NCBI RefSeq assembly: GCF_002079305.1
Contig: NZ_CP015039.1
Coordinates: 4,015,501-4,079,500 of the forward strand
Direction: 5' to 3'
Length of the DNA stretch: 64,000 nt
Source of the DNA: Rhodovulum sp. P5
GTDB taxonomy: Bacteria; Pseudomonadota; Alphaproteobacteria; Rhodobacterales; Rhodobacteraceae
The notes beneath the pieces are model-generated. The model saw only the letters and a list, made by a program, of their open reading frames with translations. It was not told where the DNA came from and did no database searches. A program made the position numbers and the translations under genes. Positions 49,313 through 64,000 of the stretch are shown here, piece after piece (the first letter of the stretch is position 1; each line of letters begins with the position of its first letter).

Positions 49313-49783
49313 GTGAGCACGGCCAGTCACCCGGGTTTTCAGACCGGGCCCAGCACAGCATGGACGATCGAGTTGTTTCAACGCGACGGTGCACCGCCGC
49401 TGCGTGTGTCCTGCCGGTGCCTCAGCCATCGCAGCCGCCCCGGCGAGAACGGCGAAATGCTGTTTCTTGGCCTGTGGGAATTGCGCAATGGCGGCTACAT
49501 CGTCGCGCGCAGCCTGCTGGATGGCGACGCGCCCAAGGCGACCGCGGACAAGGCGGAGAATCTTGAGACAGCGATGCTTCTGATCGAGGCGGCAACTGCC
49601 GCGCTTGAGAAGAGTGCCGGCATGACCTTCGTGCCCGGGGATCTGTCGCCCACGTCCTTCGGGCAGGCTTTGCAAAGACTGCAATCCCGGTCCGAACGCC
49701 GCCATAGCTTCATGAAGCTGGCGGGGGAGGCGCTGGACGACTGGCAGCGCCTTGTCGGTACCGAATTCGATTCCACCCATTGA
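49313..49783 (+). CDS. Unknown protein at head of PYP/gvp block
   Basis: A 156-residue protein, not recognised. It starts with GTG behind a good GAGGG ribosome-binding site. The order looks like strands (STAWTIELFQRDGAPPLRVSC, LFLGLWELRNGGYIVARSL) then an alpha-helical end (FGQALQRLQSRSERRHSFMKLAGEALDDW). No membrane helix. It is followed 15 bases later by an Ala/Pro/acidic-rich gene and is co-directional with the PYP and gas-vesicle genes. Confidence 0.6.
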   Translation: MSTASHPGFQTGPSTAWTIELFQRDGAPPLRVSCRCLSHRSRPGENGEMLFLGLWELRNGGYIVARSLLDGDAPKATADKAENLETAMLLIEAATAALEKSAGMTFVPGDLSPTSFGQALQRLQSRSERRHSFMKLAGEALDDWQRLVGTEFDSTH

Positions 49784-49798
49784 TGAAGGATGGACGCC

Positions 49799-50563
49799 AT
49801 GGAGCCCAACAAAACCTATAAGCGCCGTGCCGGTACGGTCCGCAGCGAGGCTCGCGCCCATCTGGCTGAGATCCGCAAGGCCCGGATGGCCCGCCGCAAG
49901 CCCGAGGCTGCGGAAAAGGATCACGTGGCCCTGCGTGCGGCCGCCCCTGTCACCCAGCCGGCCCATGATGCCATCGCCATTCGACCCTCTGCCACGCCGC
50001 GGAGCTTTGAACACACGCTGGTTGATCCGGCGCCGACCCCGTGCAGCGATTCGGTTGAGGCAACCGGTCTGGCTGAACCCGCTGTCGAGGAGACTAAAGC
50101 GGACACTGGTGAGGTGGCAGCCACGGCATCCGCTGCCGCAGGTGTCGACGAAGCACCCCTGAGCAACGGGACGACGGACGGGGAATCGGGTGAGGGAGAT
50201 GACCCGCTGGCCTCCTCTGCGCCCGAAGACGCCCCGAAAGACTCCGCGGCCGCGGCGAAAGCCACGGTCCTGCCCGATTCCGAACCGGACGCTGTGGATG
50301 GCGCGTCGCCCGACATGCCCGAGGAGGCCGCGCCCGAAGAGCCGGCTGAGCCTGCGCTGGATTCCAGCAGCGACCTGTTCGATCTTCCCGGTGCCGGAAG
50401 CGGGCTGGTCTGGATGCTTCAGAACGCCGGTGTCGCCACCATGCGCGATCTGGCCGCCGCCGACGCCGATGCGTTGTCGGAACGACTGGGCCTGATCGGC
50501 CAGATCCTGGACATCGGCCACTGGATCGACTTCGCAAAGTCGCAGGTCACCCCCAAGGGCTGA
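49799..50563 (+). CDS. Low-complexity linker protein with C-terminal helical domain
   Basis: 254 residues. A basic N-terminus (KTYKRRAGTVRSEARAHLAEI), a long Ala/Pro/Glu/Asp-rich disordered middle (about residues 45-195), then a compact C-terminal domain LFDLPGAGSGLVWMLQNAGV followed by DLAAADADALSERLGLIGQILDIGHWIDFA, which resembles a helix-hairpin-helix or SAP-like fold. It could be a DNA/RNA-binding or tethering protein. Function unknown. The second ATG (49799) has AAGGA at good spacing; the ATG at 49790 overlaps that ribosome-binding site. Confidence 0.6.
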   Translation: MEPNKTYKRRAGTVRSEARAHLAEIRKARMARRKPEAAEKDHVALRAAAPVTQPAHDAIAIRPSATPRSFEHTLVDPAPTPCSDSVEATGLAEPAVEETKADTGEVAATASAAAGVDEAPLSNGTTDGESGEGDDPLASSAPEDAPKDSAAAAKATVLPDSEPDAVDGASPDMPEEAAPEEPAEPALDSSSDLFDLPGAGSGLVWMLQNAGVATMRDLAAADADALSERLGLIGQILDIGHWIDFAKSQVTPKG

Positions 50564-50576
50564 CCAGCCCCATCAT

Positions 50577-50592
50577 CCCGGCCGCGGCCGGG
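50577..50592 (+). terminator. Palindromic hairpin after linker gene
   Basis: CCCGGCCGCGGCCGGG is a perfect 16-base palindrome (6-bp stem, 4-base loop) starting 14 bases after the stop codon at 50563. No T-tract follows, so termination is a guess. Confidence 0.4.
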
Positions 50593-50619
50593 ACATGTTC
50601 CGTTCTGCCCCGCAGCGTT

Positions 50620-50766
50620 TCAGTGCGTCGCGGGTTGCAGCACGAACTTTGCGTCCGGCAGGAAATCCGACAGGAAAAGTATCATTTCAGATGCTTCTGC
50701 AATCGTTTTGAAGACGTATAGCAGGATGCTTTCGCCATCCTGCATGACGCGCAATTCCACCGTCAT
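50620..50766 (-). CDS. Small antisense ORF, 48 residues
   Basis: A short minus-strand ORF: MTVELRVMQDGESILLYVFK, then TIAEASEMILFLSDFLPDAKFVLQ and PATH. It has a well-formed strand-strand-helix pattern and codon choice like that of real genes, and it sits divergently from the PYP-proximal genes, the only minus-strand ORF in this stretch. The ribosome-binding site is weak (GGGG). Not recognised; a real small protein seems somewhat more likely than chance. Confidence 0.45.
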   Translation of the reverse strand: MTVELRVMQDGESILLYVFKTIAEASEMILFLSDFLPDAKFVLQPATH

Positions 50767-50937
50767 GTTCAGCCCCACACTTCAGTCACCACATTGTCTA
50801 ATAAAAATCATTTGAAGGTCCGCGAATAGCCCTGTCCGCTGGATACAGATTGTTCACTCGTTGGATCGATAACGGGATCAGGATCGGATGGAACCGGTCC
50901 GGAAGAAGCCAATGCCGCCGGAAGGAGCATTCAGCGC

Positions 50938-51363
50938 ATGAAGGAAATTGGGAAACTCTACGAGGCCGATGGCCGGTACGAGTTCCGTCTCGACGAGATG
51001 GGACTGATCGTCCGCGGCGAACACCCGGAATGGGTGATGCAGGCCGCAAGCGAGGTCGTCTCTCAGACGGCGCGGCTTGAAGCAGAAAGCAGGCTTGACG
51101 AGCTGGAAGCGCTTGTCGAGTTCGAGGCCGCAAGCGAGATCGAGGTCGACAGCGCGAAATACGCCAAGAAGGAGCGCTTCGAAACGATCCCGCAATGCAT
51201 CGTCACGATGGGCAAGCTTGACTACCGTTGGGCAGCCCCCGAGGGGCGCGCGATACATGCCGATGAATTCGACGGGCATCCGTATCGACGGATCAACGAC
51301 ATGTCGATGACCTACAACGATTCGTTCCTCCAGAACGAAAACGGCGTCGACACCTCCAAGTAA
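50938..51363 (+). CDS. Unknown protein upstream of pyp
   Basis: 141 residues, acidic and helical: KEIGKLYEADGRYEFRLDEM, then EHPEWVMQAASEVVSQTARLEAE and a charged coiled-coil-like RLDELEALVEFEAASEIEVDS. The C-terminal third (KLDYRWAAPEGRAIHADEFD, YRRINDMSMTYNDSFLQ) is rich in Tyr/Asp. The family is not known to me. It ends 29 bases before pyp and shares its strand, so it is probably co-transcribed and could partner PYP, but this is inference from position. Confidence 0.65.
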   Translation: MKEIGKLYEADGRYEFRLDEMGLIVRGEHPEWVMQAASEVVSQTARLEAESRLDELEALVEFEAASEIEVDSAKYAKKERFETIPQCIVTMGKLDYRWAAPEGRAIHADEFDGHPYRRINDMSMTYNDSFLQNENGVDTSK

Positions 51364-51392
51364 CACCACGGACTGACAGCAAGGATAACACG

Positions 51393-51767
51393 ATGGAAAT
51401 CATTCCTTTCGGCAGCGCGGATCTCGATAACATCCTTTCCCGCGAGCCTCAGCGCGCGGAATACCTGCCCTTCGGTGCCGTTCTGCTCGACCGCAACGGC
51501 ACGATCGTCAAGTACAACAAGGCCGAGGGCCTGATCGCGAGCCGGACCCCCGAGGACGTGATCGGCAAGAACTTCTTCAACGAGATTGCTCCCTGCGCCA
51601 AGGGCAAGCGCTTCCACGGCGAGTTCCTGAAGTTCCACCAGACCGGCCAGATCAACGTGATGTTCGACTACAAGTTCGCCTACAAGGGCGCGAACGTCTC
51701 GGTGAAGATCCACCTCAAGTCGCAGCCCGATGGCCAGCACTGCTGGTTGTTCGTGAAACGCGCCTGA
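51393..51767 (+). CDS. pyp: Photoactive yellow protein (PYP)
   Basis: A 124-residue PAS-fold blue-light receptor whose chromophore is p-coumarate, thioester-linked to a cysteine. Key residues in Halorhodospira numbering are recognisable: Cys69 is C68 (IAPCAKGKRF), Glu46 is E45 and Tyr42 is Y41 (VKYNKAEG), Arg52 is R51. Thr50 is replaced by Ala49. The KNFFNEIAPC core and the CWLFVKRA end are intact, and the sequence closely resembles the Rhodobacter PYP. AAGGA precedes the ATG. The co-located CoA ligase probably activates the coumarate; no tyrosine ammonia-lyase gene is in this window. Confidence 0.96.
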   Translation: MEIIPFGSADLDNILSREPQRAEYLPFGAVLLDRNGTIVKYNKAEGLIASRTPEDVIGKNFFNEIAPCAKGKRFHGEFLKFHQTGQINVMFDYKFAYKGANVSVKIHLKSQPDGQHCWLFVKRA

Positions 51768-51783
51768 CCGGAGCGGCGCGGCG

Positions 51784-52374
51784 ATGCTCACGGAACGGGA
51801 CATCAGTTACGAAGCGACCGTTTCGCCGGAACTCGTCGCCCTTCTGACTGGCGGATGCCACACTGGCGCGCCCGTGCCGACCTGCGAGCCTGAACCGGAG
51901 GACACACCGGCCCAAGAGGTCGACGTTGCCCCCGTTTGTCCGGAGAAACCGGACGGGCCCAAGGCGCCCTGGCAACCGCTTTCCCTGCGCTGCGACGGGC
52001 GACGCCCGGTCTGCATGTCGGGGCTCAGCGTGTGGTGTGATGAAGTCGAGGCAGACTATGTCGACGGGTCCGGGCAGACCGGGATTGGACGACGCCGCTT
52101 CGAACTTTTCTTCACCGAGGAGGGCGACACGGTCGCCCATCTGGTTGTCACACCTCCGGACGCGTTGCCGGCGCGTCCAATTCACCGCGTAGCCATCCTG
52201 TCCGATCTCGGGGACCTCGATCGCTTTCTGCAAGCGAATGATCCTTCCGAATGTCTGGCCGTTGCCCCGTGGGTGCATGCGTCGGACCGGAACGAGGACC
52301 TTTGGGCCGGGCTGCGCGTCGTTCCGCCCTTTCCGCCGGGGTCAACGCTCCGGGACAGAAACCCAATGAACTGA
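51784..52374 (+). CDS. Unknown protein downstream of pyp
   Basis: 196 residues, not recognised. A Cys-Pro-Glu-rich linker (about residues 22-65, with CHTGAPVPTCEPEPEDTPAQ) precedes a compact domain SLRCDGRRPVCMSGLSVWCD with further cysteines, then FELFFTEEGDTVAHLVVTPP and DLGDLDRFLQANDPSECLAV. No signal peptide or membrane helix. It starts 16 bases after pyp (GGAG behind the start) and lies 13 bases before the next unknown gene. Six or more Cys make a redox or metal role conceivable, but unproven. Confidence 0.6.
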   Translation: MLTERDISYEATVSPELVALLTGGCHTGAPVPTCEPEPEDTPAQEVDVAPVCPEKPDGPKAPWQPLSLRCDGRRPVCMSGLSVWCDEVEADYVDGSGQTGIGRRRFELFFTEEGDTVAHLVVTPPDALPARPIHRVAILSDLGDLDRFLQANDPSECLAVAPWVHASDRNEDLWAGLRVVPPFPPGSTLRDRNPMN

Positions 52375-52387
52375 AGGACGAACTGCC

Positions 52388-52891
52388 ATGAACGTCATGA
52401 ATCCCGCAGGACCGATGCCCGTCGACTCCATGTCGCAGATGGGCGACCGGTCCGAGACCCCGTCCGTCGGCATGTCGAGCGAATTCCGCATCCGGCGGGT
52501 CGGCGGTCGCCCGATCGTCTTCCGCGGTTCGGAACTGGCGATGAGCATGAGCTTCACGCCCGAGATTCCGTACTGGTACGAAATGAACATCTACCGCACG
52601 CAAAGCCAGCGATTCGTGCTTGCAGTCCGTGTGTTCTTCCAGTCCGCGGACGAGGAAGATTATGTCCGAGCCTGGGAATTCGATGACCTGAGCGACGTGT
52701 TCGATGCCATCGAGGGCTACGACGCTGCGCAAGACGTCAAGATGACCCTGCCGGCCAAGATCGATACCCTGCCGCCGGCAGCACTTGCGGCCCATGCGCT
52801 GGAACTTCAGGCCAAGGTGTCTGCCGCGCGCGCCCATTATCAAGGTCTTGTCGGCGAGCTGTTTGCCGAAATCGAGTCGAAGTCGGCCTGA
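52388..52891 (+). CDS. Unknown protein between pyp and CoA ligase
   Basis: 167 residues, not recognised. A Met/Pro-rich start (MNVMNPAGPMPVDSMSQMG), a central strand-rich domain (FRIRRVGGRPIVFRG, YWYEMNIYRTQSQRFVLAVR), an acidic RAWEFDDLSDVFDAIEGYDA segment, and a C-terminal helix (ALELQAKVSAARAHYQGLVG). GAAGGA precedes the ATG. It has the strand-strand-helix look of the small proteins at 49313 and 50620, without identifiable homology by eye. Confidence 0.6.
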   Translation: MNVMNPAGPMPVDSMSQMGDRSETPSVGMSSEFRIRRVGGRPIVFRGSELAMSMSFTPEIPYWYEMNIYRTQSQRFVLAVRVFFQSADEEDYVRAWEFDDLSDVFDAIEGYDAAQDVKMTLPAKIDTLPPAALAAHALELQAKVSAARAHYQGLVGELFAEIESKSA

Positions 52892-52907
52892 GGACGGTTT
52901 CGCGCCG

Positions 52908-54155
52908 ATGACTCCGGAGAAACTGGAAAAGGCACGGCCGCCGCTCTTGGGAAAAGACGAGGCGCGGCGCCTCTGTATCGCGCTGATCGAGGCAGAGCAG
53001 GACCGGCTCTTGCGCGAAGGGCGTATCGACAGGACATCCATGATCGGCGCCCGCCTGGCCGGGGCGGGCACGATCGACCCTGACGACCTTCTGATCGACG
53101 AGGCGACACTGGGCTTTGACAGCCTCTCGCTGCTCGATCTGATCATGTCACTCAACCGCTATTTCGGACTCGCGTCCACCGGGGTCGAGGACTACCTGCT
53201 GGTTCAGCGACGTCTTGGCGACTGGGCCGATCTGGTTGCGCATCATTTCGAGCTTGTGGGCCGGGATGCCGAGATAACCTTTACCACGTCTGGCAGCACG
53301 GGCCCCGGAAAGCTAATCCGGCATGGCCGCGATGTGCTTGAGGCCGAGATGTCCGGGGTCGCGGACCTTTTGCAACCGTATCTGCGGCCGGACACCCGGG
53401 TTCTGTCGATGGTCGCGCCCCTGCACATCTACGGGTTTCTCTGGGCGTGTCTCTTGCCGCGGATGACCGGGCTTGAGGTGCGCGATATCGGTGCGTTGTC
53501 GCCCACGCGCTTGCTGCGTGAAGCGCGCAGCGGCGACATCGTCCTTGGCACCCCCTTTACCTGGGCACAGCTTGCGAAGACCGGTGGCAGACTGCCGGAT
53601 GACGTCACCGGCGTCAGTGCCGGGGCAACGTCCACACGGGATACATGGCAGGCCGTTGCCGAAATCGGGCTGGACCGGCTGATCGACATCTTTGGATCGA
53701 CCGAAACCGGTGGCGTGGGTATGCGGGCGGAGGAGGGCACGCCCTTCACCCTGCTGGCGCATCTGACACGCTGCGGCGAGGATATCGCGCGAAAGTCCGA
53801 CCCGACCACGCCCCTTGCCCTTCAGGACCGGCTGGATTGGACCGATGCGCGCGCCTTTCGCGTGCTGGGGCGGAATGACACCGTCGTCCAGATCGCGGGG
53901 ACCAATGTCAACCCGGATGCTGTGCGGGAGGTCTTGCGTGCCGACCCTGCCGTGGCCGATGCTGCGGTGCGGCTGGATGGCGACCGGCTGAAGGCCTTTG
54001 TCGTCCCGACCGACGGGGCAGGCGATACCGGGCCGCTTGAAACGGCCCTTCGGGATCGCGTGAACCGCGAGCTGCCGGCGCCGGCCCGCCCTGACCGGTT
54101 TACCTTCGGCCCCCGGATTCCGCGCAACGCGATCGGCAAGCTGGCCGATTGGTAG
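52908..54155 (+). CDS. pcl: CoA ligase (p-coumarate type), ACP-like N-terminus
   Basis: A 415-residue AMP-forming acyl-CoA synthetase placed next to PYP, where p-coumarate:CoA ligase is expected; it should make p-coumaroyl-CoA, the donor of the PYP chromophore. The P-loop is FTTSGSTGPGKLIRHG (about residues 125-140), with FGSTETGG and a shortened C-terminal domain ending PRNAIGKLADW. Unusually, residues 60-110 (DPDDLLIDEATLGFDSLSLLDLI) look like an acyl-carrier-protein fold with a DSL serine at 72. GAGGA precedes the ATG. Substrate is inferred from position and family. Confidence 0.82.
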   Translation: MTPEKLEKARPPLLGKDEARRLCIALIEAEQDRLLREGRIDRTSMIGARLAGAGTIDPDDLLIDEATLGFDSLSLLDLIMSLNRYFGLASTGVEDYLLVQRRLGDWADLVAHHFELVGRDAEITFTTSGSTGPGKLIRHGRDVLEAEMSGVADLLQPYLRPDTRVLSMVAPLHIYGFLWACLLPRMTGLEVRDIGALSPTRLLREARSGDIVLGTPFTWAQLAKTGGRLPDDVTGVSAGATSTRDTWQAVAEIGLDRLIDIFGSTETGGVGMRAEEGTPFTLLAHLTRCGEDIARKSDPTTPLALQDRLDWTDARAFRVLGRNDTVVQIAGTNVNPDAVREVLRADPAVADAAVRLDGDRLKAFVVPTDGAGDTGPLETALRDRVNRELPAPARPDRFTFGPRIPRNAIGKLADW

Positions 54156-54164
54156 ACCGTTTGT

Positions 54165-54180
54165 CCCCGGTGCGCCGGGG
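54165..54180 (+). terminator. Hairpin after CoA ligase gene
   Basis: CCCCGG-TGCG-CCGGGG makes a 6-bp stem, flanked by TTTGT on the left and TCAAA on the right, extending the pairing. It lies 9 bases after the stop and probably separates the pyp/pcl unit from the chemoreceptor operon. Confidence 0.5.
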
Positions 54181-54233
54181 TCAAATGCCCTTCTCCCCAC
54201 TGGCTGCAACCAAGTCTTAAGGGAGGGGCGGCT

Positions 54234-54311
54234 ATGAGGATCGAGAACGTCGGCGCACCACGGAGTCGCGCGGTCGCACTGCAACAGTTCATCGTGAAGG
54301 ACAGACCATGA
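54234..54311 (+). CDS. 25-codon leader ORF of the chemoreceptor operon
   Basis: [20 protein letters not shown] followed by VKDRP, with a strong GGGAGGGG ribosome-binding site. Its stop codon overlaps the chemoreceptor start (ATGA), so its translation should be coupled to the large gene. The sequence has no obvious repeated residue like an attenuator. It may be a real small protein, a regulatory uORF or chance. Confidence 0.4.
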
Positions 54312-57130
54312 CCTCACAACCGGAAGCCGCCGCGAACGCAGACTTCGAGGCACTGCTGTCCAAGGCGCTGGGTGAGCAAATCCTTGCCGAGTCCTACGCC
54401 CTTACCTTCGATGCCGAAACGCGCATGTTGGTGACGGCGAACGAACCCGCGGTCTTCCTGCTGGAACTCGCCGAGGACAACCTTGGTGCCTACGACTTCG
54501 ACGGGCTGATCGCCCCCGATGGTCTTGACGTGCAGGAGTTGTGGGAGACGGCTGCATCCGGCGTCCGCCCGACCTGGGACGGGGCGCTGGTGGCAAGCCT
54601 TTCTGAATCCCGGCATACAATGACCTTCCGCGCCGTACGCCTGTCTGACGAGGGCGGCGAGCGGCTTTCGGTGGTTGCATTGTCCGCCCCGGTGGCCGAG
54701 CCCGCGCCATCGGAAAGCACGGCTGGCCCGGCCAGCAAGTGGAGTGTGGCGGACGATTACGTCGGCTTCATCGAATACGACGCCGATGGGAACATCATCG
54801 ACGCCAATGACCGCGCGAACATGGCGCTGGAATTCTACGGCGAAAGCATGGTGGGCAAGAACCATGATGCACTTTGGCCCGACAGCGTCACCCAGACCCC
54901 GGAATATGTGGAGTTCTGGGAAAAACTGCGCCAAGGCCGGGTGGTGGAGCGCAAGTACCTGCACGTCACGGCCGAAGGTCAGAACATCTGGCTGCATTCG
55001 ACCTTCATCCCCGTCAAGGATGACATGGGGCAGGTCAAATCGGTCATTCAGTGCCTGATGGACGTCAACGACGACGCCGCCACCGCCGCGATCAACCAGG
55101 CGAAGGTGGATTTCTTCACCCAGAATCTTGGAACCGTCGAATACGACACTGACGGGAACGTCTTGACCGTGTCCGACCGAATGCTGGAAATCGTCAAGTT
55201 CGAGCGGGATGAACTGATCGGCAAGCATCTGCGCCGCTTCACCGTCGCCGACTTCGCGCGTGGCACGGCGTTTGCCGAAGCCTGGGCCGGGGTGATGAAG
55301 GGCGAGTCGCGCGTGATCGACATGCCGCACGTGACCAAGGCGCTTGACATCAACTGGACCCGGTCGCGGTTCGCGCCCCTCAAATCCCCCGATGGCAGCG
55401 TCGAGAAGGTGTTCGAGATCGCCATCGACAACAACAACGAGAAGGTCGACCTCGACCGGCTGCGCAAGCGTTTCAATGCAGTCGATGACCGGCTGTCCGT
55501 GGTCGAATACAAGATCGATGGGTCGATCATCGAGGCGAACGCGACCTTCTGCAAGATGATGGGTCTCAATCCGCTGGAACTGAAGGAACGCGACCACAAA
55601 TCTTTCGTTCCCAAGGATTTTGCAGACTCGCGCCGTTACGACGAATTCTGGGATCGCCTTGTGAAAGGCGAGCGGATCACCGGCCGGTTCCGTCGCTTTG
55701 CCAATGACGGGCGCGATGTCTGGCTGCACGCCACCTATTCGCCCATCGTGTCCGAAGAGGATGGCCTTGTTAAATCCATCCTGTTCTTTGCCATCGACGT
55801 GACAGACTTCCGCAAGACGGAACTGAAGTCAGAGGCCATCCTTCATGCGCTCGACAAGTCGATGATGGTCGTCGAGTACGAGATGGACGGCAGCGTGATG
55901 ACCGCCAACAACTTCTTCCAGGAGCAGATGGGCTATCGGCTGGAGGAAATCCGCGGTCGCCAGCACGCGATGTTCATGGACAAGGAAGAGGCCAAGAGCA
56001 TGGATGCCATGCAGATGTGGGACCATCTGCGCGACGGCGGCAGCCACGAAGGCGAGGTTCTGCGCGTGGGCGCGGGGGGGCAGGAACACTGGCTGCAAAG
56101 CCACTATCACGCCATTCCCGATCTCAACGGCCATTTCACCAAGGTGATCCAGATCGCCTTCGAGATCACCGAAAGCAAGGAAAGGCTGAGCGAGCTTGAA
56201 AGCAAGTGGCAGGCGGCCCTCAGCCATCAGGCCGTGGTCGAATTCGATGCCGAGGGCAAGATCCTGCATGCCAATGACAGTTTCCTGCGCCTTGTCAGCT
56301 ACTCCCTGCGGGAGATCGCGGGCCAGAACCACCACTTCATCTGCACCGCCGACTATATCCGCTCTCCCGCCTACAGCGACTTCTGGATGGCCCTGCGCCG
56401 GGGCGAGCCGCAAAGCGGACGTTTCCACCATGTTGCCCGGTTCGACCGCGATCTTTTCATGCTGGCGCATTATGCCCCTGTCCGGAACTCCAAGGGAGAG
56501 GTCGACCGGATCATCATGTGTGGCTACGACGTGACCGACCAGGTTGCGCTGGAACGCACGGCGAAAGATCAGGCAACCGCCCTCGCGGCCGAAGCCGGCA
56601 AGCTGCGGGACAGCCACCAGGCGGTGCGCCAGGACGCGGAAAACCTGACAAAGGCCATCGAAGGCCTGCGCGAAAGTGCGGAACGCAGCGACGATCTGCT
56701 TGACGGATCGCTGACCGAGATGACAAGCGCCCGTGAAGCGGCCAGCAAGGTCACCGAGATTGTCGAGCTTGTCAGCGACATCGCCGTGCAGACCAATCTG
56801 CTTGCCTTCAACGCCGCCATCGAAGCGGCCCGGGCAGGGGAACATGGTGCGGGCTTCTCCATCGTGGCCGACGAGGTTCGCAAGCTGGCCGAACGCAACG
56901 GCGAGGCGGCCCGCGAAATCTCGCGCCAGATCGAACGTGCCAATGACAGCATCCAGCGCGGCACGAAAGGCACCGAGGAGGCGATCCAGCGGATCAAGGG
57001 CATCGGCGACATGGCGCAAAACCATAGCGGCGGCATGACCGATCTTGTGGATCATGCCGAGACGCAGGAAGCCTCGGCGACCAGCCTCACCCAGGTTGCC
57101 GAAGAACTTCAGCGCGCCGTCAGCAACTGA
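54308..57130 (+). CDS. Soluble multi-PAS chemoreceptor
   Basis: A 940-residue cytosolic methyl-accepting chemotaxis-type receptor with no membrane helices. Residues 25-130 look like a degenerate PAS; five clear PAS repeats follow at about 150-256, 272-378, 391-500, 513-622 and 636-743, four of them with an xxxHxxF/W-type loop ([32 protein letters not shown]). The MCP signalling helix pair spans 745-940 with the conserved tip [19 protein letters not shown] and [20 protein letters not shown]. No CheR-binding pentapeptide is seen at the end. Ligand unknown; heme, flavin or oxygen sensing is typical of such repeats. It overlaps the CheW-like gene by one base. Confidence 0.9.
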
Positions 57131-57528
57131 TGTCGGAGCCGGCGCACCACTCCACCTGGACCACCTTCGGGCTGATGGAGGTGGGAGAGAGCACCCTTGG
57201 CGTGAACATCGCCAACCTGACGGAAGTGCAGCCGATCGATGGGCTGTCGCCGCTGATGGTCTCTCACCCCGCGTTTCTTGGCGCGATGCGGTTGCGCGGG
57301 CGACTGATCCCGGTCTTCGACCCGCGGGTTCTGTGCGGGTTTCCGCGGACCGACACACCGCCGGCCATCGCGGCCATCATGGCCCATGAGGAACGGCTGG
57401 TCGCCCTGGCGGTGGACGAGATCACGGGGCTGGCGAAAGCTGACGAAGCGGCGCTTCAGCGGCTGGAATCCGGCGGTGCCGCGGGGGCGGTCTGTTCTTC
57501 GGAGGGTTCTACCACGACGGCCGCGTGA
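57130..57528 (+). CDS. CheW-like scaffold, 5' piece (frameshifted)
   Basis: A 132-codon frame with a CheW domain start (TTFGLMEVGESTLGVNIANL, FLGAMRLRGRLIPVFDPRVL). It runs out of frame after LESGGAAGA, where a run of five G at 57483-57487 would have to be six to continue as GLFFGGFYHDGRVINVIDP, the normal end of a CheW domain. The gene therefore appears to be one long CheW-CheW-CheW protein interrupted by a missing G. CheW proteins couple chemoreceptors to CheA; no cheA is in the window. Confidence 0.75.
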   Translation: MSEPAHHSTWTTFGLMEVGESTLGVNIANLTEVQPIDGLSPLMVSHPAFLGAMRLRGRLIPVFDPRVLCGFPRTDTPPAIAAIMAHEERLVALAVDEITGLAKADEAALQRLESGGAAGAVCSSEGSTTTAA

Positions 57529-58634
57529 TCAACGTGATCGATCCGCTGGCGCTCTTCTCGCTTCCGGATCTGCCGACAGCAGAACGGTTTCGTAGAAAGG
57601 AAACCGGCTACAAGGTCAGCGGTCGCAAAGCGTATCTGACATTTCAGGCGGGCGGGGCGCGGTTCGCGGCGCCCGCCATCGACGTGCACGGCACCCTGCC
57701 GCGGCAACATGTTGACCGCGACGCGCTTGCCGGTGGTCTTTGCCTTGGATCTGTCCGTGTCAACGGGGTGCGGATTCCGGTGATCGACGCGCCGGGCCTT
57801 CTGGGGCTTGGCACCGCGCGCGAACGCGCCAATCCCGAAATCGTTGTCATCAGCTTCGAGGGGGAGCACCTTCTGGGCCTTGCGGTGGATGTCATCTGCC
57901 GGATCGCGACCTTCGGGGAACAGCAGTTGACCACCGTTCCGGCGCTGCTTGGCGGCGGTAAATCCGCGCTGGGCTTGATGGTGACCGAGGACGACGGAAC
58001 CCAGACCTATGTCATAAGGGTGGAGTATCTGCGCGAGGATCCGGACCTGAAGTCCATCGCGGGGCTGTCCGGCCCCGTGACCGAGACCGACGGCCGGCCT
58101 GCAAAGAAAGGCGACGCGGCCGCAAGGAATGACACCGCGAAGCAGGCCCATGACGACGGCAGGCCCGCCTCGAACACGATCATCCACGAACGCAAGCGCT
58201 ATGTGGTGTTCGAGGCCTGCAGCACATTCGCGATCCCGATCGAAAAGATCATCCGGATCCTCGAACCACCGAAAAAGATCACGCCCTTTCCCGATACGGG
58301 GGGCGGTATCCTCGGCCTGTTTTCCGTGGACGGGCAGCCGACGACACTGGTTTGCCTTTGCCGCTACCTTCACCTTGGCGCACCGGCCGAGACCGACAAG
58401 CGCCGCGTGCTTCTGGCCGGGGACGAAGACCGCCAGATCGGCATTCTGGTCAACTCCGTGGACGGGATCGAAACCTCTACCTGGCGGGCAGAGAATACCG
58501 AACCCTCGGCGTTTCTTGAGCAGATGGTCAAGCTTGGCCGCCCCGAGGCGCAGGTCGTTCTGCCCCGTCTGGATGTAGATGCCCTGTCGGCCCGGATTGC
58601 GCGCGGAAATCGTGCAATGTCGGTCTTCGCTTAA
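57525..58634 (+). CDS. CheW-like scaffold, 3' piece (frameshifted)
   Basis: A 369-residue frame with the last strand of the interrupted first CheW domain (VINVIDPLALFSLPDLP) and two further CheW domains: KAYLTFQAGGARFAAPAIDV with ISFEGEHLLGLAVDVICRI, and RYVVFEACSTFAIPIEKIIR with DDRQIGILVNSVDG-type strands, joined by a charged linker. A GTG at 57525 overlaps the preceding stop and could allow reinitiation. Joined to the 5' piece after restoring one G it gives about 500 residues and three CheW domains, a multi-CheW scaffold beside the chemoreceptor. Confidence 0.75.
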   Translation: MINVIDPLALFSLPDLPTAERFRRKETGYKVSGRKAYLTFQAGGARFAAPAIDVHGTLPRQHVDRDALAGGLCLGSVRVNGVRIPVIDAPGLLGLGTARERANPEIVVISFEGEHLLGLAVDVICRIATFGEQQLTTVPALLGGGKSALGLMVTEDDGTQTYVIRVEYLREDPDLKSIAGLSGPVTETDGRPAKKGDAAARNDTAKQAHDDGRPASNTIIHERKRYVVFEACSTFAIPIEKIIRILEPPKKITPFPDTGGGILGLFSVDGQPTTLVCLCRYLHLGAPAETDKRRVLLAGDEDRQIGILVNSVDGIETSTWRAENTEPSAFLEQMVKLGRPEAQVVLPRLDVDALSARIARGNRAMSVFA

Positions 58635-58693
58635 GCCGTCTTTAAGGTGAAAGGCTTTTAACTAAAGCCGTAGAAAACGGTGAGGACGCAGAA

Positions 58694-59656
58694 GTGACGG
58701 TTCCCAAACCAGAGGCGGGTCATGCGCCCGGTGTCCAGTTGGACGTGATCGACAATCCCTGGCTTGGGCTGCAAAGCCGGCACGGGTTTTTCCAGAACGC
58801 AGAAATCACCGATATCATGGCCCGGGCGCTGTCCTATGTGCGTGCGGGGGTCTGCGTTCACTTCTCCGGCATGGCCGGCCTTGGCAAGACCACGATGGCG
58901 CTTCGGATCGCCGAGGCGCTGGGCCGCCCGGTGTCCTTCATGACCGGAAACGAATGGCTGACCACCAAGGACTTCATCGGCGGCCAGATCGGAGAGACGA
59001 CCTCCACCGTTGTCGACAAATACGTGCAAAGCGTGCGCCGGTCAGAGACGACGACCCGGGCGGACTGGAAGGACTCCATCCTCGCCGTGTCGATGGAGCG
59101 GGGTTACACGCTGGTCTACGATGAATTCACCCGCGCTTCTCCGGCCGCCAATGCCGCGCTTCTGTCGGTCTTGGAGGAGGGGGTTCTGGTGTCCACCGAT
59201 CACACCAGCACCCGCACCTATATCGAGGCCCACCCCGATTTCCGCATCATCCTGACCTCGAACCCGCACGACTATCAGGGCGTGAACATGGCGCCTGACG
59301 CGCTGGTCGACCGGATGGTGACCCTGCGTCTGAAAGAGCCGTCGGCCGAAACGCTGGCCGGGATCGTCGCGGCGCGCAGCGGGCTCGATCCCGAAAACAG
59401 CCGCCGCATCGTCCATCTGGTGCTGCGTGCGCGGGAAAGTTTCGACGTGCATGGCCTGTCGTCGATGCGCACCAGCATCCTGATCGCGCGCCTTGCCGCG
59501 CCGCTTGAGATGGCCGGACAACTGACCGCCGCGGCGTTGGCCCAGATCGCGTCGGACGTCCTTTCGGGACGCGGGGCAGAGATCGGTCCGCAAGATATCG
59601 AACATGCGCTCGACCCGCAGACAGCGCAACAGATGCAACGGATCGTGGGGGCATAG
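58694..59656 (+). CDS. gvpN: Gas vesicle ATPase GvpN
   Basis: A 320-residue MoxR-like AAA ATPase of gas-vesicle assembly. Walker A is GMAGLGKTTMALRI (near residue 61), Walker B VYDEFTRA, sensor region ILTSNPHDYQGVNMAPDALVDRMV, and the C-terminal SSMRTSILIARL. GvpN is needed for normal gas-vesicle growth in other organisms. It starts with GTG behind GAGGA, 59 bases after the CheW-like gene, so the same transcript may carry both. Confidence 0.94.
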   Translation: MTVPKPEAGHAPGVQLDVIDNPWLGLQSRHGFFQNAEITDIMARALSYVRAGVCVHFSGMAGLGKTTMALRIAEALGRPVSFMTGNEWLTTKDFIGGQIGETTSTVVDKYVQSVRRSETTTRADWKDSILAVSMERGYTLVYDEFTRASPAANAALLSVLEEGVLVSTDHTSTRTYIEAHPDFRIILTSNPHDYQGVNMAPDALVDRMVTLRLKEPSAETLAGIVAARSGLDPENSRRIVHLVLRARESFDVHGLSSMRTSILIARLAAPLEMAGQLTAAALAQIASDVLSGRGAEIGPQDIEHALDPQTAQQMQRIVGA

Positions 59657-59658
59657 GG

Positions 59659-59883
59659 ATGAAACGACCCAAGACATGCATGCCGAAAACCGCGCGCCAG
59701 ACGTCGACCGCCGTGGCGCGCACCCGCAAGGAAGCCGCGATCCATCTTGTCCGGGTCGAGTTCGACATGAACCGGCTGGAAATGGGGATCGACCAGGCGC
59801 AAGAGCGGGTCACGCGCTATGCCGAGGAATTGCGCCAGCGCCAGCGCGAACGCGACACCCTCCTGAACATCCTGAAGTCCTGA
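59659..59883 (+). CDS. Small coiled-coil protein in gvp cluster
   Basis: 74 residues: a basic start (MKRPKTCMPKTARQTSTAVA) then one long amphipathic helix (HLVRVEFDMNRLEMGIDQA, then ERVTRYAEELRQRQRERDTL). It starts 2 bases after gvpN. Not assigned to a named Gvp family with confidence; in size and position it resembles accessory coiled-coil Gvp proteins, possibly interacting with GvpN or GvpO. Confidence 0.7.
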   Translation: MKRPKTCMPKTARQTSTAVARTRKEAAIHLVRVEFDMNRLEMGIDQAQERVTRYAEELRQRQRERDTLLNILKS

Positions 59884-59914
59884 TTTTGCGCCACATCACG
59901 GAGGACGCGCCAAA

Positions 59915-60223
59915 ATGGAACAACCCAAGCCCGGCAGCTTCAGCACCGAGGGCGGTGCGGCTGCCATGTCGATGGTCGAGATCATCGCGCTTGCCCGCCG
60001 TGCCCTGACCGCGATGAACGGCAGCCCGATCGACGCCGTCGCGCAATGCGAGGGCGAGGATGACGGATCGTGGCGGGTGGTGATCGACGTGGTCGAAAGC
60101 CCCGCGCGCATGGGCAACAACGATCTGCTGTGCGCCTATGAAATCCGTGTGTCGCCCCAGGGAAAGGTTGCCGGTTTCCAGCGCCTTGGCCGATATCACC
60201 GAGAGGACGGGAGCGTCGGTTGA
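59915..60223 (+). CDS. gvpO: Gas vesicle protein GvpO
   Basis: A 102-residue protein of the GvpO family, recognised from MSMVEIIALARRALTAMNGSP, the WRVVIDVVESPARMGNNDLLCAYEIRV strands and GFQRLGRYHREDG. GvpO is essential for gas vesicles in halobacteria though not part of the shell. GGAGGA precedes the ATG. Its stop overlaps the TTG of gvpJ. Confidence 0.88.
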   Translation: MEQPKPGSFSTEGGAAAMSMVEIIALARRALTAMNGSPIDAVAQCEGEDDGSWRVVIDVVESPARMGNNDLLCAYEIRVSPQGKVAGFQRLGRYHREDGSVG

Positions 60224-60546
60224 GCTTCGAGGTCCAAAGCCCCATTCACAATGACAGCCTTGCCGAGGTGCTGGAACGCATCCTCGACAAGGGCATCGTG
60301 ATTGCGGGCGATATCTCGATCTCGCTGGTCGGGATCGAGCTTTTGACCATCCGGCTGCGCCTGCTGATCGCCACCGTCGACAAGGCGAAAGAGCTTGGCA
60401 TCAACTGGTGGGAAAGCGACCCCCGCCTGACCACCGCCCCCCAGACCGAACACTTGCCGCCTGCGGACTCTGCCGCCGTTGCCGAACGCCTTGACCGGCT
60501 TGAAGCGCAGATCACCCGGCTTGTCGAAATGAAGGAACTTCGCTGA
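60220..60546 (+). CDS. gvpJ: Gas vesicle protein GvpJ
   Basis: A 108-residue member of the GvpA/J/M superfamily: SLAEVLERILDKGIVIAGDI, then LVGIELLTIRLRLLIATVDK and GINWWESDPRL. The shared helix-beta-beta core matches GvpJ rather than GvpA, because the WWESDP motif after the core is a GvpJ/GvpS feature and the C-terminus carries a Glu-rich coiled coil. It probably forms the caps or nucleus of the vesicle. It starts with TTG overlapping gvpO and its stop overlaps gvpH by one base. The major shell protein GvpA is not in this window. Confidence 0.88.
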   Translation: MSFEVQSPIHNDSLAEVLERILDKGIVIAGDISISLVGIELLTIRLRLLIATVDKAKELGINWWESDPRLTTAPQTEHLPPADSAAVAERLDRLEAQITRLVEMKELR

Positions 60547-61121
60547 TGGACGAAAAGAACAAGGACCGGTTCCGCAAGGCCGGCGAGGAAATCGACGTGC
60601 GCCTCGGCGATCTTCTGGGGGATCTTGGGTCCGCGCTGTCAGAGATGATGGACCGGCTGGAAAGCGGGCAATCGCAAGAGGTGCGCCGCGATTACAGCGT
60701 TGACACCGGCAAGGGTCCGATCCGCGCTGAAACCGGTATCCGCGTCCGCGTGGCAGGGCAGGAGGTCGGCAGCACCCGTCAACCCCGCGCCCCGCGCCCG
60801 GTCAACCGCCCAGCGGGCAAGCCCGCCGCCCGCGCCGAAGCGGCCGCACCGGCCAGCCCCAAACCGCGGCCGATCGCGGCTGACATCTTCAGCGATGGCG
60901 GGCAGTGGCAACTGGTCGCCGACCTGCCGGGTATCGACGCAGATGGCCTGACCCTGTCGGAGGAGGGCGCGGAACTCGTCGTTGCCGCCACCGGCCGTGG
61001 CCGCAGGTTCGAGGGCCGGTTCACAATGCCGGAGGGCCTTGGCCTTGCCGACCTTTCCGTTTCCCTCAACAACGGGATTCTTGAGATCACCGCCGAGTTG
61101 CCCGGTGAGGCGGACACATGA
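60546..61121 (+). CDS. gvpH: Gas vesicle protein GvpH (Hsp20-like)
   Basis: 191 residues. The N-terminus has the GvpH-like start (RLGDLLGDLGSALSEMMDRLESGQ), then a Pro/Ala-rich linker and a small Hsp20-type alpha-crystallin-like domain from about residue 110 (DIFSDGGQWQLVADLPGIDA ... GRFTMPEGLGLADLSVSLNNGILEI). It may chaperone shell proteins. It overlaps gvpJ by one base and gvpF/L by four. Confidence 0.85.
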   Translation: MDEKNKDRFRKAGEEIDVRLGDLLGDLGSALSEMMDRLESGQSQEVRRDYSVDTGKGPIRAETGIRVRVAGQEVGSTRQPRAPRPVNRPAGKPAARAEAAAPASPKPRPIAADIFSDGGQWQLVADLPGIDADGLTLSEEGAELVVAATGRGRRFEGRFTMPEGLGLADLSVSLNNGILEITAELPGEADT

Positions 61122-61882
61122 TCTATCTTTACGGATTGCTGGAACCCGGGTGCGAGGTGCCCGAGGCCCTGACCGGTCTGGACGGCGTGACCGGGCCGGT
61201 CGACCTGACGCCGCTGCCCCAGGGCACGCTGATCCACGGGGCCCATGACGGGACCGAGATCAGGCCCAAGCGCCGTTACCTTCTGGCCCATACCAAGGTT
61301 CTGGAAACGGCCGCGAGTGACGCGCCGGTTCTGCCCATGCGGTTTGGCATGTGGGCCAAGGATGTGGCCGAAGTCGCCGACCTGCTGGACGCCCGCGAAG
61401 GCCAGATCGTAAGCGCCTTCGACCGGATTCGGGGGCAGGTGGAACTTGGGCTGAGGATCGATTTCCCGCGCGAGGCGGCCCTGTTCGCGACCCTTCAGGC
61501 GGAGCCCGCGCTGGCCGCGGAACGCGACAAGCTGATGGCGGCGCGCACGCCAAATCACTTCGCACAGGCCGAATTCGGACGCAAACTCGCCGAACGGCTG
61601 GATGCCCGGCGGGGCGCGGCGCAGAAGGAACTGCTGGCATGGCTGAGGCCGCAACTGACATCGCATGTTCTGGGCAAGCCGGAAAGCGACGTGCAGGTTC
61701 TGGCCGCCGATGTGCTGATCCCCGCCGATCAGCAGCAGACCTTCGCCGCGGCGGTAGAGGCACTGGCCGCCGTCTGTGATTTCGCACCGGGGGCAGAGCC
61801 GCAAATCCGCCTGATCGGCCCCGTGCCGCCCTTCAATTTCGTCAAGGTTTCGCTCTCGCCCCACAGAACGGAGGCTGCGTAA
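61118..61882 (+). CDS. gvpF: Gas vesicle protein GvpF/GvpL
   Basis: A 254-residue GvpF/L-family protein. It has the N-terminal ferredoxin-like domain (MIYLYGLLEPGCEVPEALTG), the APVLPMRFGMWAKDVAEVADLL segment that defines the family, and a C-terminal domain ending PPFNFVKVSL. GvpF binds GvpA and is a minor shell/assembly protein. F and L cannot be separated by eye, so the symbol is tentative. It overlaps gvpH (ATGA) and gvpG by one base. Confidence 0.9.
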   Translation: MIYLYGLLEPGCEVPEALTGLDGVTGPVDLTPLPQGTLIHGAHDGTEIRPKRRYLLAHTKVLETAASDAPVLPMRFGMWAKDVAEVADLLDAREGQIVSAFDRIRGQVELGLRIDFPREAALFATLQAEPALAAERDKLMAARTPNHFAQAEFGRKLAERLDARRGAAQKELLAWLRPQLTSHVLGKPESDVQVLAADVLIPADQQQTFAAAVEALAAVCDFAPGAEPQIRLIGPVPPFNFVKVSLSPHRTEAA

Positions 61883-62115
61883 TGGGACTCTTGGGAAAAC
61901 TGCTGACCCTGCCCGTCAAGGGGCCGATGGATGCCTCGGTCTGGGTGGCCGAAAAGATCCACGAGGCTGCCGAGAAGGAATGGAACGACCCCGTGGCGTT
62001 GAAAGCGCAGCTTTCCGATGCGGAACGGCGCCTTGTCGCGGGCGAGATCTCGGAAGACGAATATGACGAGATCGAGGAAGCCCTGCTCGAACGGCTGCAT
62101 ATGGCCAAGGGATGA
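61882..62115 (+). CDS. gvpG: Gas vesicle protein GvpG
   Basis: A 77-residue GvpG-family protein: LGKLLTLPVKGPMDASVWVAEKIHEAAEKEW-type opening in two parts, then a helical acidic end (AERRLVAGEISEDEYDEIEE). GvpG is usually encoded beside gvpF and is needed for assembly. It overlaps both neighbours. Confidence 0.88.
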   Translation: MGLLGKLLTLPVKGPMDASVWVAEKIHEAAEKEWNDPVALKAQLSDAERRLVAGEISEDEYDEIEEALLERLHMAKG

Positions 62116-63596
62116 CGGGGCCGGGCCTGCATGTGGAGGTGACCGACGCCGCCACCCGAGGTGTGATCCGCCTGTCCCGCCGCGATCTTGCCGCTTTGAA
62201 CCTGCGGCCCGGCGACACGGTTTGCGCCACCGCCGGGCGGGCCTGCCACGGCCGGGTCAGCGTCGGCGCGGTTGCGGAAGGGAGCGCGCTGCTCGACCGC
62301 GATCTGGCTGCGAATTGCGACACGTCTCAGGATGGGCGGGTCTTTCTGCGACCGGCCGATCTGCCCCGGATCGAAACGCTTGCTGTGCAACTGGACACGC
62401 CCGCCCCGGTCGAACCGGCGGACCTGTCGGACGCCCTGTTCGACATGGCCCTGACCGAGGGCGACCGCCTGTCGCTGACCCTGCCGCAGGGCCGTACCGT
62501 CGGGGTCGAGGTGATGTCGGTTTCGCCCGGCGGCGCCGGACTCCTCGGGGCCGAAACCTTGGTCACGGTCCAGAACCGGCCGGGAGAGGACGACCGTCTG
62601 GCCGGTATCGGCGGGATGGCAACGCAGATCCGGCGGGTGCGCGAAATGATCGTCGCGCCCCTTGTCCGCCCGGAACTGTTTGAACGACTGGGTATTTCCG
62701 CGCCCCGCGGCGTGCTGTTCTCCGGCCCCCCGGGATCGGGCAAGACCCTGCTGGCCCGGGCCGTTGCGGCCGAGACGAAGGCCGCCTTTTTCCACCTCAA
62801 CGGCCCCGAGATCATCTCCAAGCATTACGGCGACAGCGAGGCTGCGCTCCGCCGCCTGTTCGAGGCCGCCGAGAAACAGGCGCCCAGCATCGTCTTCATC
62901 GACGAGATCGATGCTATTGCCCCCCGCCGCGATGATCTGTCCGGCGACAAGCAGGTCGAACGGCGGGTGGTGGCGCAACTTCTGACCCTGATGGACGGGT
63001 TGTCCGACCGGGGCCGGATCGTGGTGATGGCGGCCACCAACCTGCCAGACGCGCTGGATCCCGCGTTGCGCCGTCCGGGGCGGTTCGACCGTGAGATCCG
63101 GTTTTCGCCGCCCGATGCGGCCCAAAGGCGCGACATTCTCGAGGTGCATCTTGCGAAGTCGCCGCTGGCCGGGGATGTCGATCTTTCCGCATTGGCGGAT
63201 ATCGCCCACGGTTATGTCGGCGCCGATCTGGCCGCGCTGGTGCGCGAGGCGGCCGTGGCAGCGCTTGCCCGCAGCGTAGCCGAGGCCGGGTCAGAGGCCG
63301 CCGTCGATCTGGAAAACCTCGCGATTACGCAAGCCGATCTGGAACACGGGCTGGCCGTAACCTCCCCCAGTGCTCTGCGTGACAGTGCGGTCGATGCCCC
63401 GCCGGTGCGCTGGGAAGATATCGGCGGGCTCGATGCGCCCAAAGCGGCGCTTCAGCGCGCGGTCATGTGGCCGATGGAGCACCGGGAGCGGTTTCGGGAG
63501 CTGGGCGTTCAGCCGCCCCGCGGCATCCTGCTGACCGGCCCGCCGGGTCGGGCAAGACACTCCTCGCCCGGGCGCTGGCCTTTGAAAGCGGGCTGA
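62112..63596 (+). CDS. Cdc48-like double AAA ATPase, 5' piece (frameshifted)
   Basis: A 494-codon frame encoding an N-terminal substrate-recognition domain (double-psi barrel-like, residues 1 to about 150) and a first AAA+ module with Walker A SGPPGSGKTLLARAVA (near 205), Walker B IVFIDEIDAI and arginine-finger PALRRPGRFDREI. A second AAA module starts (LLTGPP) but is cut by a frameshift at 63545-63547, where GGG should be GGGG. ATPases of this type occur in proteobacterial gas-vesicle clusters. It overlaps gvpG by 4 bases. Confidence 0.85.
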   Translation: MTGPGLHVEVTDAATRGVIRLSRRDLAALNLRPGDTVCATAGRACHGRVSVGAVAEGSALLDRDLAANCDTSQDGRVFLRPADLPRIETLAVQLDTPAPVEPADLSDALFDMALTEGDRLSLTLPQGRTVGVEVMSVSPGGAGLLGAETLVTVQNRPGEDDRLAGIGGMATQIRRVREMIVAPLVRPELFERLGISAPRGVLFSGPPGSGKTLLARAVAAETKAAFFHLNGPEIISKHYGDSEAALRRLFEAAEKQAPSIVFIDEIDAIAPRRDDLSGDKQVERRVVAQLLTLMDGLSDRGRIVVMAATNLPDALDPALRRPGRFDREIRFSPPDAAQRRDILEVHLAKSPLAGDVDLSALADIAHGYVGADLAALVREAAVAALARSVAEAGSEAAVDLENLAITQADLEHGLAVTSPSALRDSAVDAPPVRWEDIGGLDAPKAALQRAVMWPMEHRERFRELGVQPPRGILLTGPPGRARHSSPGRWPLKAG

Positions 63597-64000
63597 ATTT
63601 CGTCCCCGTCCGCCCCCCGCGCCTGATGTCGCAATATCTGGGGGAGGCCGAGCGCGCCGTCGCCCGCCTGTTTGAAACCGCCCGCGCGACCGCGCCCACG
63701 CTGTTGTTCTTCGATGAACTCGACGCGCTGGCCCCGCGGCGCAGCGGCAAGGATGCGGTGCTTGACCGGATCGTGGCGCAACTGCTGACCGAAATCGACG
63801 GCTGTGCCGGGCGCGATGGCGTGGTGCTTCTGGCCGCAACGAACAGGGCGGCCTCCATCGATCCGGCTTTGACCCGGCCGGGGCGGTTTGACACGGTGAT
63901 CCCCCTTGGGCTGCCGGACCGCGCCGCGCGGGCCAGCATCCTGCGCGTACATCTGGCCAACCGCCCGCTGGCCGCGGATCTGGACATCGACCGGCTGGCC
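63548..64000 (+). pseudogene. Cdc48-like AAA ATPase, 3' piece (partial)
   Basis: The continuation of the previous gene in the shifted frame, open to the end of the window: SGKTLLARALAFESG (Walker A), PTLLFFDELDALAPRRSGK (Walker B) and PALTRPGRFDTVI (arginine finger). All AAA motifs are intact, so apart from the missing G the gene looks functional. Listed separately because the reading frame as written does not join; the 3' end is outside the window. Confidence 0.75.

Follow-up and report, generated by a model that had tools for sequence, protein, structure and literature searches.

Photoactive yellow protein (PYP) has been described near gas-vesicle (gvp) genes in Rhodobacter capsulatus and Loktanella sp. 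SE62 (PMC3646047, citing Kyndt 2004), and the passages of that paper on these clusters name no chemoreceptor/CheW pair. A 2025 survey lists the function of R. capsulatus PYP as "unknown" in its table (Dohmen 2025, PMC12826048). The same survey ties PYP to methyl-accepting chemotaxis proteins (MCPs) through fusions and pyp operons, for which phototaxis is proposed; it counts MCP in 12 fusions without giving an operon count, and the terms "gas vesicle," "gvp," and "CheW" are absent from its main text. Another PYP-containing photoreceptor, Ppr of Rhodocista centenaria, binds CheW and is possibly tied to CheAY (PMC2993699), but it is a fusion of PYP with a bilin-binding domain and a kinase, and the abstract gives no link to gvp genes. 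Sensory rhodopsin-Htr pairs offer, as a model only, a photoreceptor that signals via a separate MCP (PMC12826048). Here, we analyzed a stretch of 64,000 nucleotides from Rhodovulum sp. P5 (contig NZ_CP015039.1; hereafter the window), which ends in an island of genes for PYP, for gas vesicles, and for a pair consisting of a PAS-domain MCP and an adaptor with three CheW domains (CheW3). In contrast to the fusions, the MCP and CheW3 are encoded by separate genes, and in contrast to the membrane complexes of the sensory rhodopsins, all island parts look soluble and contact between PYP and the MCP is putative. Our search of the literature, which covered titles and abstracts and few subscription papers, found no report of an MCP/CheW3 pair in PYP-gvp islands.

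Recurrence of the pair in PYP-gas-vesicle islands

The original prediction held that the MCP/CheW pair belongs with PYP and the gas-vesicle genes, and the comparison of gene order across genomes bears this out: the pair is in, or adjoins, the gvp cluster of 16 of 20 PYP-bearing genomes. These are the genome of the window and 19 others (L011 to L029) with a PYP at least 73% identical, taken from 37 loci found in a scan of named PYP genomes that was pattern-limited and possibly left out near relatives of the window. Gene order was established by tblastn and blastp with the window proteins, on the PYP loci and on neighboring stretches from a CheW-domain search. The pair had also been noted directly before gvpN. 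This is so in the window and in four further islands (Roseivivax isoporae, R. halodurans, HLUCCA09, and Rhodovulum 12E13), which rules out that the pair sits beside gvpN only in this genome, but these make up only 5 of the 16 islands. In nine, the pair is at the end carrying gvpA and an aromatic amino-acid lyase, which we call TAL-type by context, from its place beside PYP genes (the island lyase scores best with histidine ammonia-lyase models, always below cut-off). These are the islands of Kangsaoukella, Yoonia maricola, an uncultured Sulfitobacter, Roseibacterium SDUM158017, Pseudorhodobacter MZDSW-24AT, Yoonia F2084L, Rhodobacter KR11, the uncultured 2-1022, and HKCCE3408, the last with the pair about 2 kb from gvpA and without a TAL match. 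The pair is split around gvpA in two, Salipiger marinus and Alloyangia mangrovi; PYP and pair are on separate contigs in Alloyangia, each with gvp genes, and in Salipiger, the PYP match starts only at residue 43, close to the end of a contig. It is the retention of the pair somewhere in the island that matters, not the place before gvpN. As read from gene order, the recurrence of the same gene set across genera is more than chance.

Among 394 genomes of the family, PYP was found in 5, gvpN in 8, and a three-CheW protein in 17. The latter was present in all five PYP genomes versus 12 of 389 others (Fisher p = 8e-8, relatedness ignored), and it was also associated with gvpN (Fisher p = 4e-6, relatedness again ignored). 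These five PYP genomes overlap the 20 compared above: four are among the 16, including the window, and the fifth is Rubrimonas (G083). The CheW3 protein was absent from all three gvpN-positive, PYP-negative genomes of this sample. One of the three, G342, was dropped as a control for gvp clusters without PYP because it has a gvpN-like gene alone, with no other gvp match. In a sample of 385 genomes of the class, gvpN occurred in three: the window, G657, and G671. The 22-kb contig of G657 has neither PYP nor the pair, and G671, from another alphaproteobacterial family, has PYP, its small neighbor gene orfX, the CoA ligase, and gvp genes, with no pair in the 40 kb examined (L109 and L110). A second PYP is encoded in the G671 genome. 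Overall, the pair is lacking near three of three clear gvp clusters without PYP (G051, G386, and G657) and in both PYP-gvp clusters beyond the Rhodobacterales (Rhodoblastus and G671). A presumed MCP adjoining the G386 gvp cluster was rejected, as the match is by eye a PAS histidine-kinase/receiver-type protein.

Evolutionary history of the pair

The CheW3 tree has 29 rows, in which the window is represented by the second part of its interrupted gene only. It does not include L086 and L091, whose CheW genes are interrupted too. Rows were labeled as gvp-linked by gene order, including G158 (a TAL-linked contig end) and G140 (a relic). Sixteen island rows form one clade (98/96), and those of Salipiger and Alloyangia are placed among unlinked pairs; forcing all 18 island rows together costs 61 log units (approximately unbiased test, p = 2.5e-7). 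Two uptakes of the pair into the island would be the simplest reading of this topology, with two changes needed; an ancient link with repeated losses would take more changes and is less simple. The MCP tree includes 29 of 35 sequences, six having failed the hairpin pattern (the second MCP of L067, L077, L069, L074, L025, and L082), and does not include the R. isoporae MCP, which is in two frames. Its placements agree with those of CheW3, with a clade of 15 (95/87) and Salipiger and Alloyangia apart; two origins do not follow from its well-supported branches alone, and its bootstrap had not converged. In the gvpN tree, Salipiger and Alloyangia are within a group of 19 PYP-gvp rows (97/94), and the pair-less Cereibacter and G051 sit beside the window (96/91), so that the pair was likely lost there.

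The remaining twelve CheW3-bearing genomes of the family comprise two with apparent island pieces, three with che-type operons, six in which CheW3 adjoins an MCP without linkage to gvp genes (G128, G077, G293, G222, G153, and G039), and one in which CheW3 has no MCP match nearby (G355). One island piece, in G158, consists of MCP, CheW3, and TAL at a contig end. The other, in G140 (L084 8224-11312), has orf2, orf1, and residues 1 to 64 of orfX continuing directly into the latter half of the MCP, with CheW3 after it. PYP, ligase, gvpN, and TAL were unmatched at this locus, which by its gene content appears to be a remnant of the island left by a deletion. The che-type operons, in G257, G330, and G328 (L092, L093, and L094), encode a PAS-MCP, CheR, a CheD-type protein, and CheW3, and orphan MCP/CheW3 pairs may have come from operons of this kind. 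The genome of the window has a second chemosensory cluster (L068 9302-18326, at 2.07 Mb), with CheA-like, CheR-like, and three-CheW genes, whose MCP-type protein of 690 aa has two hairpin-like motifs by eye. The adaptors of these operons and of the L068 cluster resemble that of the island in having three CheW domains but differ in keeping the canonical Arg in all three (4/4 rows; CheR, CheD, and CheA were named by eye).

Domains, CtrA-type sites, and possible roles of the pair

The MCP of the window has five PAS stretches and an MCPsignal domain (PF00015, 109 bits versus a cut-off of 34.6) and no transmembrane-like segment (maximum 19-residue hydropathy, 1.17). The core of the signaling hairpin is invariant across 17 rows, and a WxxF-like C-terminal tail is present in none of 15 island MCP rows, whereas the L069 receptor of the window's genome ends in -WQDF. 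In relatives, a single open frame encodes the three CheW domains (D1 to D3); in the window, D1 is in one frame and D2 and D3 in another, with PF01584 above cut-off in both parts, and a G/C run around 57480-57490 is where the one frame seems to pass into the other. By comparison of the sequences, the two CheW genes of the window correspond to the single CheW3 gene of relatives. The MCP of R. isoporae is likewise split over two frames. The Arg of the CheW LRG motif is known to be important from work on Escherichia coli. D1 keeps it in 28/28 rows. D2 has another residue in its place in 18/18 island and 7/7 unlinked rows, with the Arg kept in the 4/4 che rows. In the aligned column of D3, it is replaced in 16/16 rows of the main clade and kept in Salipiger and Alloyangia (2/2), in 6/7 unlinked rows, and in the 4/4 che rows; seven of the 16 main-clade rows carry an Arg one position before this column, which makes the D3 loss less sharp. 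In a profile search of solved structures, D1 was the best stretch in all 7 matches, and a protein-database search with CheW part 2 gave at least six proteins among the matches listed. Searches of plasmids with the MCP gave only matches below 60% identity, and with PYP four records, again all below 60%.

The islands showed no CheA, their CheW-domain matches being the CheW3 genes, although no search with a dedicated CheA model was made; by these matches, the island is not a complete chemosensory cluster with its own CheA. Outside the island, frames of CheA size with a CheW domain are present in 19 of the 20 genomes, as judged by stop-to-stop length only and with R. capsulatus undecided. Flagellin matches were found in 20 of 22 genomes (19 above cut-off) and FliG in 6 of the 7 searched. 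A non-flagellar role cannot be argued from missing flagella, as the two genomes without a flagellin match, G404 and G410, both have FliG. Judging from this gene content, the pair may still steer flagella.

The full site of CtrA is TTAA-N7-TTAA (PMC6180460), and a spacing of N6 has been described for some Rhodobacter sites. In Cereibacter, gvpN, fla2, and mcpB are under CtrA control (PMC11999139). In R. capsulatus, a flagellar co-expression module is enriched in gas-vesicle genes (PMC4158056), and FnrL represses gvp and several MCP genes (PMC4634722). In the relatives covered by these reports, CtrA governs flagella, chemotaxis, and gvp genes together, and FnrL too acts on motility and gas vesicles. 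We scanned the 200 bp upstream of 74 island starts, partly estimated, and of 237 flank starts from a simple gene caller, allowing at most one mismatch. CtrA-type sites were found at 31/74 island starts versus 7/237 flank starts of the same stretches (p = 5.5e-16). By unit, they precede gvpN in 12/19 cases, the MCP or a separate CheW3 in 8/19, orfX in 6/19, and gvpA in 5/17. Control spacings were found at 2 to 11 of the 74 island starts (the counts of 11 are for N6 and N10) and, from N3 to N12, at 1 to 4 of the 237 flank starts. The sites of gvpN and of MCP/CheW3 clearly exceed their own controls. The window has a perfect copy before gvpN, one of nine in the genome; of the other eight, four are beside genes of HPTransfase (ChpT-type), PAS-HisKA, LuxR-type, and GGDEF-EAL proteins and four have no obvious tie. 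Genome-wide, the pattern is no commoner than its control (9 versus 11), and the case hence depends on position. With a CtrA-type site of its own, gvpN of the window may be transcribed separately from the pair under a common regulator.

We propose, with a probability of about 0.45, that the island is a CtrA-controlled unit of light/redox-linked vertical positioning, with the pair as a cytoplasmic sensing branch that probably feeds the CheA of the cell. The CckA-ChpT-CtrA relay would turn the program on, so that gas vesicles and the cytoplasmic receptor set are made simultaneously. The receptor set would sense internal redox or energy state, a PYP light signal, or both, through its PAS domains, with PYP acting through OrfX/OrfZ or straight on the PAS array. 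The canonical MCP hairpin and CheW D1 would link the set to the cell's CheA, and D2 and D3, with their replaced Arg, would have a scaffold or client role and not one in standard coupling. Most likely, the output would bias how floating cells swim; vesicle assembly may also be affected. If so, swimming and floating, two modes of vertical movement, would be united in one regulated unit. The recurrent pair and the shared CtrA-type site provide named candidate partners for PYP and a concrete lead. We rate such a CheA-coupled branch above a direct role in gas vesicles because of the flagellar genes, the CheA-sized frames, and the reports of CtrA and FnrL acting on motility and vesicles. The step from linkage to function is one that we infer, and several points weigh against the proposal. 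The support consists of gene linkage, trees, and upstream sites. In two genomes, the pair is with gvp genes and PYP is elsewhere: on another contig in HLUCCA09 and about 170 kb away in Rhodovulum 12E13. The gvp cluster lacks the pair in three Rhodobacterales, namely, Rubrimonas (with a pair on a different contig), R. capsulatus (whose PYP-gvp cluster has two PAS-MCPs of another type at its ends, L077 4021-6078 and L025 371-2947, and no CheW3), and Cereibacter johrii (where PYP and gvp genes are on different contigs), as well as in Rhodoblastus, which has a short membrane-type MCP divergent from gvpN. Related pairs away from gvp and PYP imply that the pair can work without either. Finally, the gvpA sites do not exceed their controls (shuffle maximum, 5; other gaps, at most 4), the orfX sites do so only modestly (shuffle maximum, 4; other gaps, at most 5), and the window has no CtrA full site with up to one mismatch within 200 bp 5' of the MCP or orfX.

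The off-gvp pairs (those of six gvpN-negative genomes of the family sample, that of Rubrimonas, and a paralogue in KR11) would be expected if the pair were a general motility receptor carried as a passenger in a motility and buoyancy island where CtrA-regulated genes accumulate, with no functional tie to PYP or gvp genes. The joint control of flagella, chemotaxis, and gvp genes by CtrA in relatives fits this too. We nonetheless consider it unlikely, although worth keeping in mind, given the several positions of the pair in the islands, its two uptakes in the simplest account, and its absence near the three clear gvp clusters without PYP. Control of the vesicles without CheA is a rather unlikely alternative: the MCP and CheW3 would form a lattice whose D2 and D3 bind a client on the gvp side, such as GvpN, the AAA ATPase, or OrfX/OrfZ, and gate vesicle assembly or positioning. 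The linkage to gvp genes rather than to che operons argues for it, as do the lack of a visible CheA in the islands, the replaced Arg of D2 in all island rows and of D3 in the main clade, the pairs that remain with gvp genes where PYP is elsewhere (L060 and L061), and the missing WxxF-like tail. However, the hairpin and D1 are still canonical, the D2 change extends to all seven unlinked rows and so is not specific to the island, the D3 change is tempered by Salipiger and Alloyangia and by the displaced Arg of seven main-clade rows, and the clients are only candidates. Its fullest form, a kinase-less chemoreceptor-CheW lattice that has left flagellar control, reads PYP light and redox signals, and acts directly on vesicle assembly or placement, is doubtful; if true, parts of chemotaxis would have been repurposed for steering by buoyancy.

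We find it improbable that steering by the pair depends on internal redox or oxygen only, while PYP signals elsewhere via OrfX/OrfZ and the shared island has ecological reasons. Multi-PAS receptors frequently sense redox or oxygen. OrfX and OrfZ are nearer and more constant neighbors of PYP than the pair is, and the repression of gvp and MCP genes by FnrL in R. capsulatus points the same way. Against this stands the distribution of CheW3 in the family sample, in 5/5 genomes with PYP and in 0/3 gvpN-positive genomes without it.

Gene content and layout of the window

Domain and homologue searches found the predicted genes in place: PYP, CoA ligase, PAS-MCP, CheW, gvpN/O/J/H/F/G, and the Cdc48-like ATPase (Table 1). 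The block had been described as co-directional and mostly overlapping over 15 kb. The shared direction holds; a single overlapping operon is ruled out by gaps of 374 bp before orfX, 152 bp between the CoA ligase and the MCP, and 59 bp between CheW and gvpN. The island extends for about 8 kb past the end of the window, with further gvpF/L-type genes, gvpK, the aromatic amino-acid lyase, and gvpA on the opposite strand. The frame of the AAA gene shifts near 63550, the second frame change of the window. These changes in G/C runs (57478-57491 and around 63550) may be true splits or slips of sequencing or assembly. A scan for sigma-70 promoters was unproductive, and the RNA fold of the CoA ligase-MCP gap was not clearly above shuffles (z = -1.2).

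Table 1. Features of the island within the window (window positions; the listed genes are all on the + strand)
Feature	Position	Strand	Remarks
orf1	49313..49783	+	no Pfam family; homologues in many relatives adjoin orf2, mostly on the opposite strand to pyp (tblastn)
orf2	49790..50563	+	acidic in the middle; C-terminal part weakly HHH-like (under the cut-off)
orfX	50938..51363	+	immediately 5' of pyp in 18/19 named PYP loci
pyp (photoactive yellow protein)	51393..51767	+	TIGR02373 (NCBIfam photo_yellow)
orfY	51784..52374	+	RxDGxRPLxFxG-like motif common to orfY and orfZ (read by eye)
orfZ	52388..52891	+	present in 19/19 named PYP loci
p-coumaroyl-CoA-ligase-type enzyme (chromophore activation)	52908..54155	+	AMP-binding Pfams
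soluble five-PAS chemoreceptor (MCP), conserved signaling hairpin	54308..57130	+	
CheW part 1 (domain D1, LRG kept)	57130..57528	+	
G/C run, apparent frame change between CheW parts	57478..57491	+	
CheW part 2 (domains D2 and D3, neither with the canonical Arg)	57525..58634	+	
perfect CtrA-type full site TTAA-N7-TTAA	58631..58645	.	starts 63 bp 5' of gvpN
gvpN	58694..59656	+	TIGR02640, E 2.3e-73
small gene kept between gvpN and gvpO	59659..59883	+	no Pfam match above cut-off
gvpO-type gene	59915..60223	+	by place and homologues; no NCBIfam match
gvpJ/gvpA-type gene	60220..60546	+	PF00741, 66.9 bits
gvpH-type gene (HSP20-like)	60546..61121	+	
gvpF/L-type gene	61118..61882	+	scores under model cut-offs
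gvpG-type gene	61882..62115	+	by place and homologues
Cdc48-like AAA ATPase, first piece	62112..63596	+	remainder in another frame

PYP matches its family over the full length (180.1 bits versus a cut-off of 143.05). The p-coumaric acid pocket is kept, including Tyr42, Glu46, and Cys69, with 7 of 9 listed residues identical and two Ile/Val swaps, on a list from PMC12826048 whose numbering was transferred by a one-residue offset without alignment to the type protein. The CoA ligase is close to PYP in the window and in 19/19 named loci. The small genes orfX and orfZ are constant neighbors of PYP, also in Rhodoblastus, with orfX found in G671 as well; L028 is the sole named PYP locus without an orfX match, and its pyp matches from residue 43 on only. 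We regard the orfX and orfZ families as candidate partners of PYP. A Pfam search assigned no family to orf1, orfX, orfY, or orfZ, and the models of orfZ (pLDDT 86) and orfX (pLDDT 71) had no fold match in the PDB at E ≤ 0.001. Outside these genomes, a contig of Rhodovibrio sodomensis (L039) has two PYP-like matches of about 30% identity and two MCP matches.

With gvpA and accessory gvp genes, the island holds a gas-vesicle cluster. PF00741 is above cut-off at three places in the genome, one of them inside the window, and GvpN scores 246.9 bits, slightly under the curated cut-off of 266.8. Adjoining gvpA is a gene for an acidic, partly coiled-coil-like protein (L005 6482-8053), with homologues beside gvpA in relatives, for which a GvpC-like role is possible.

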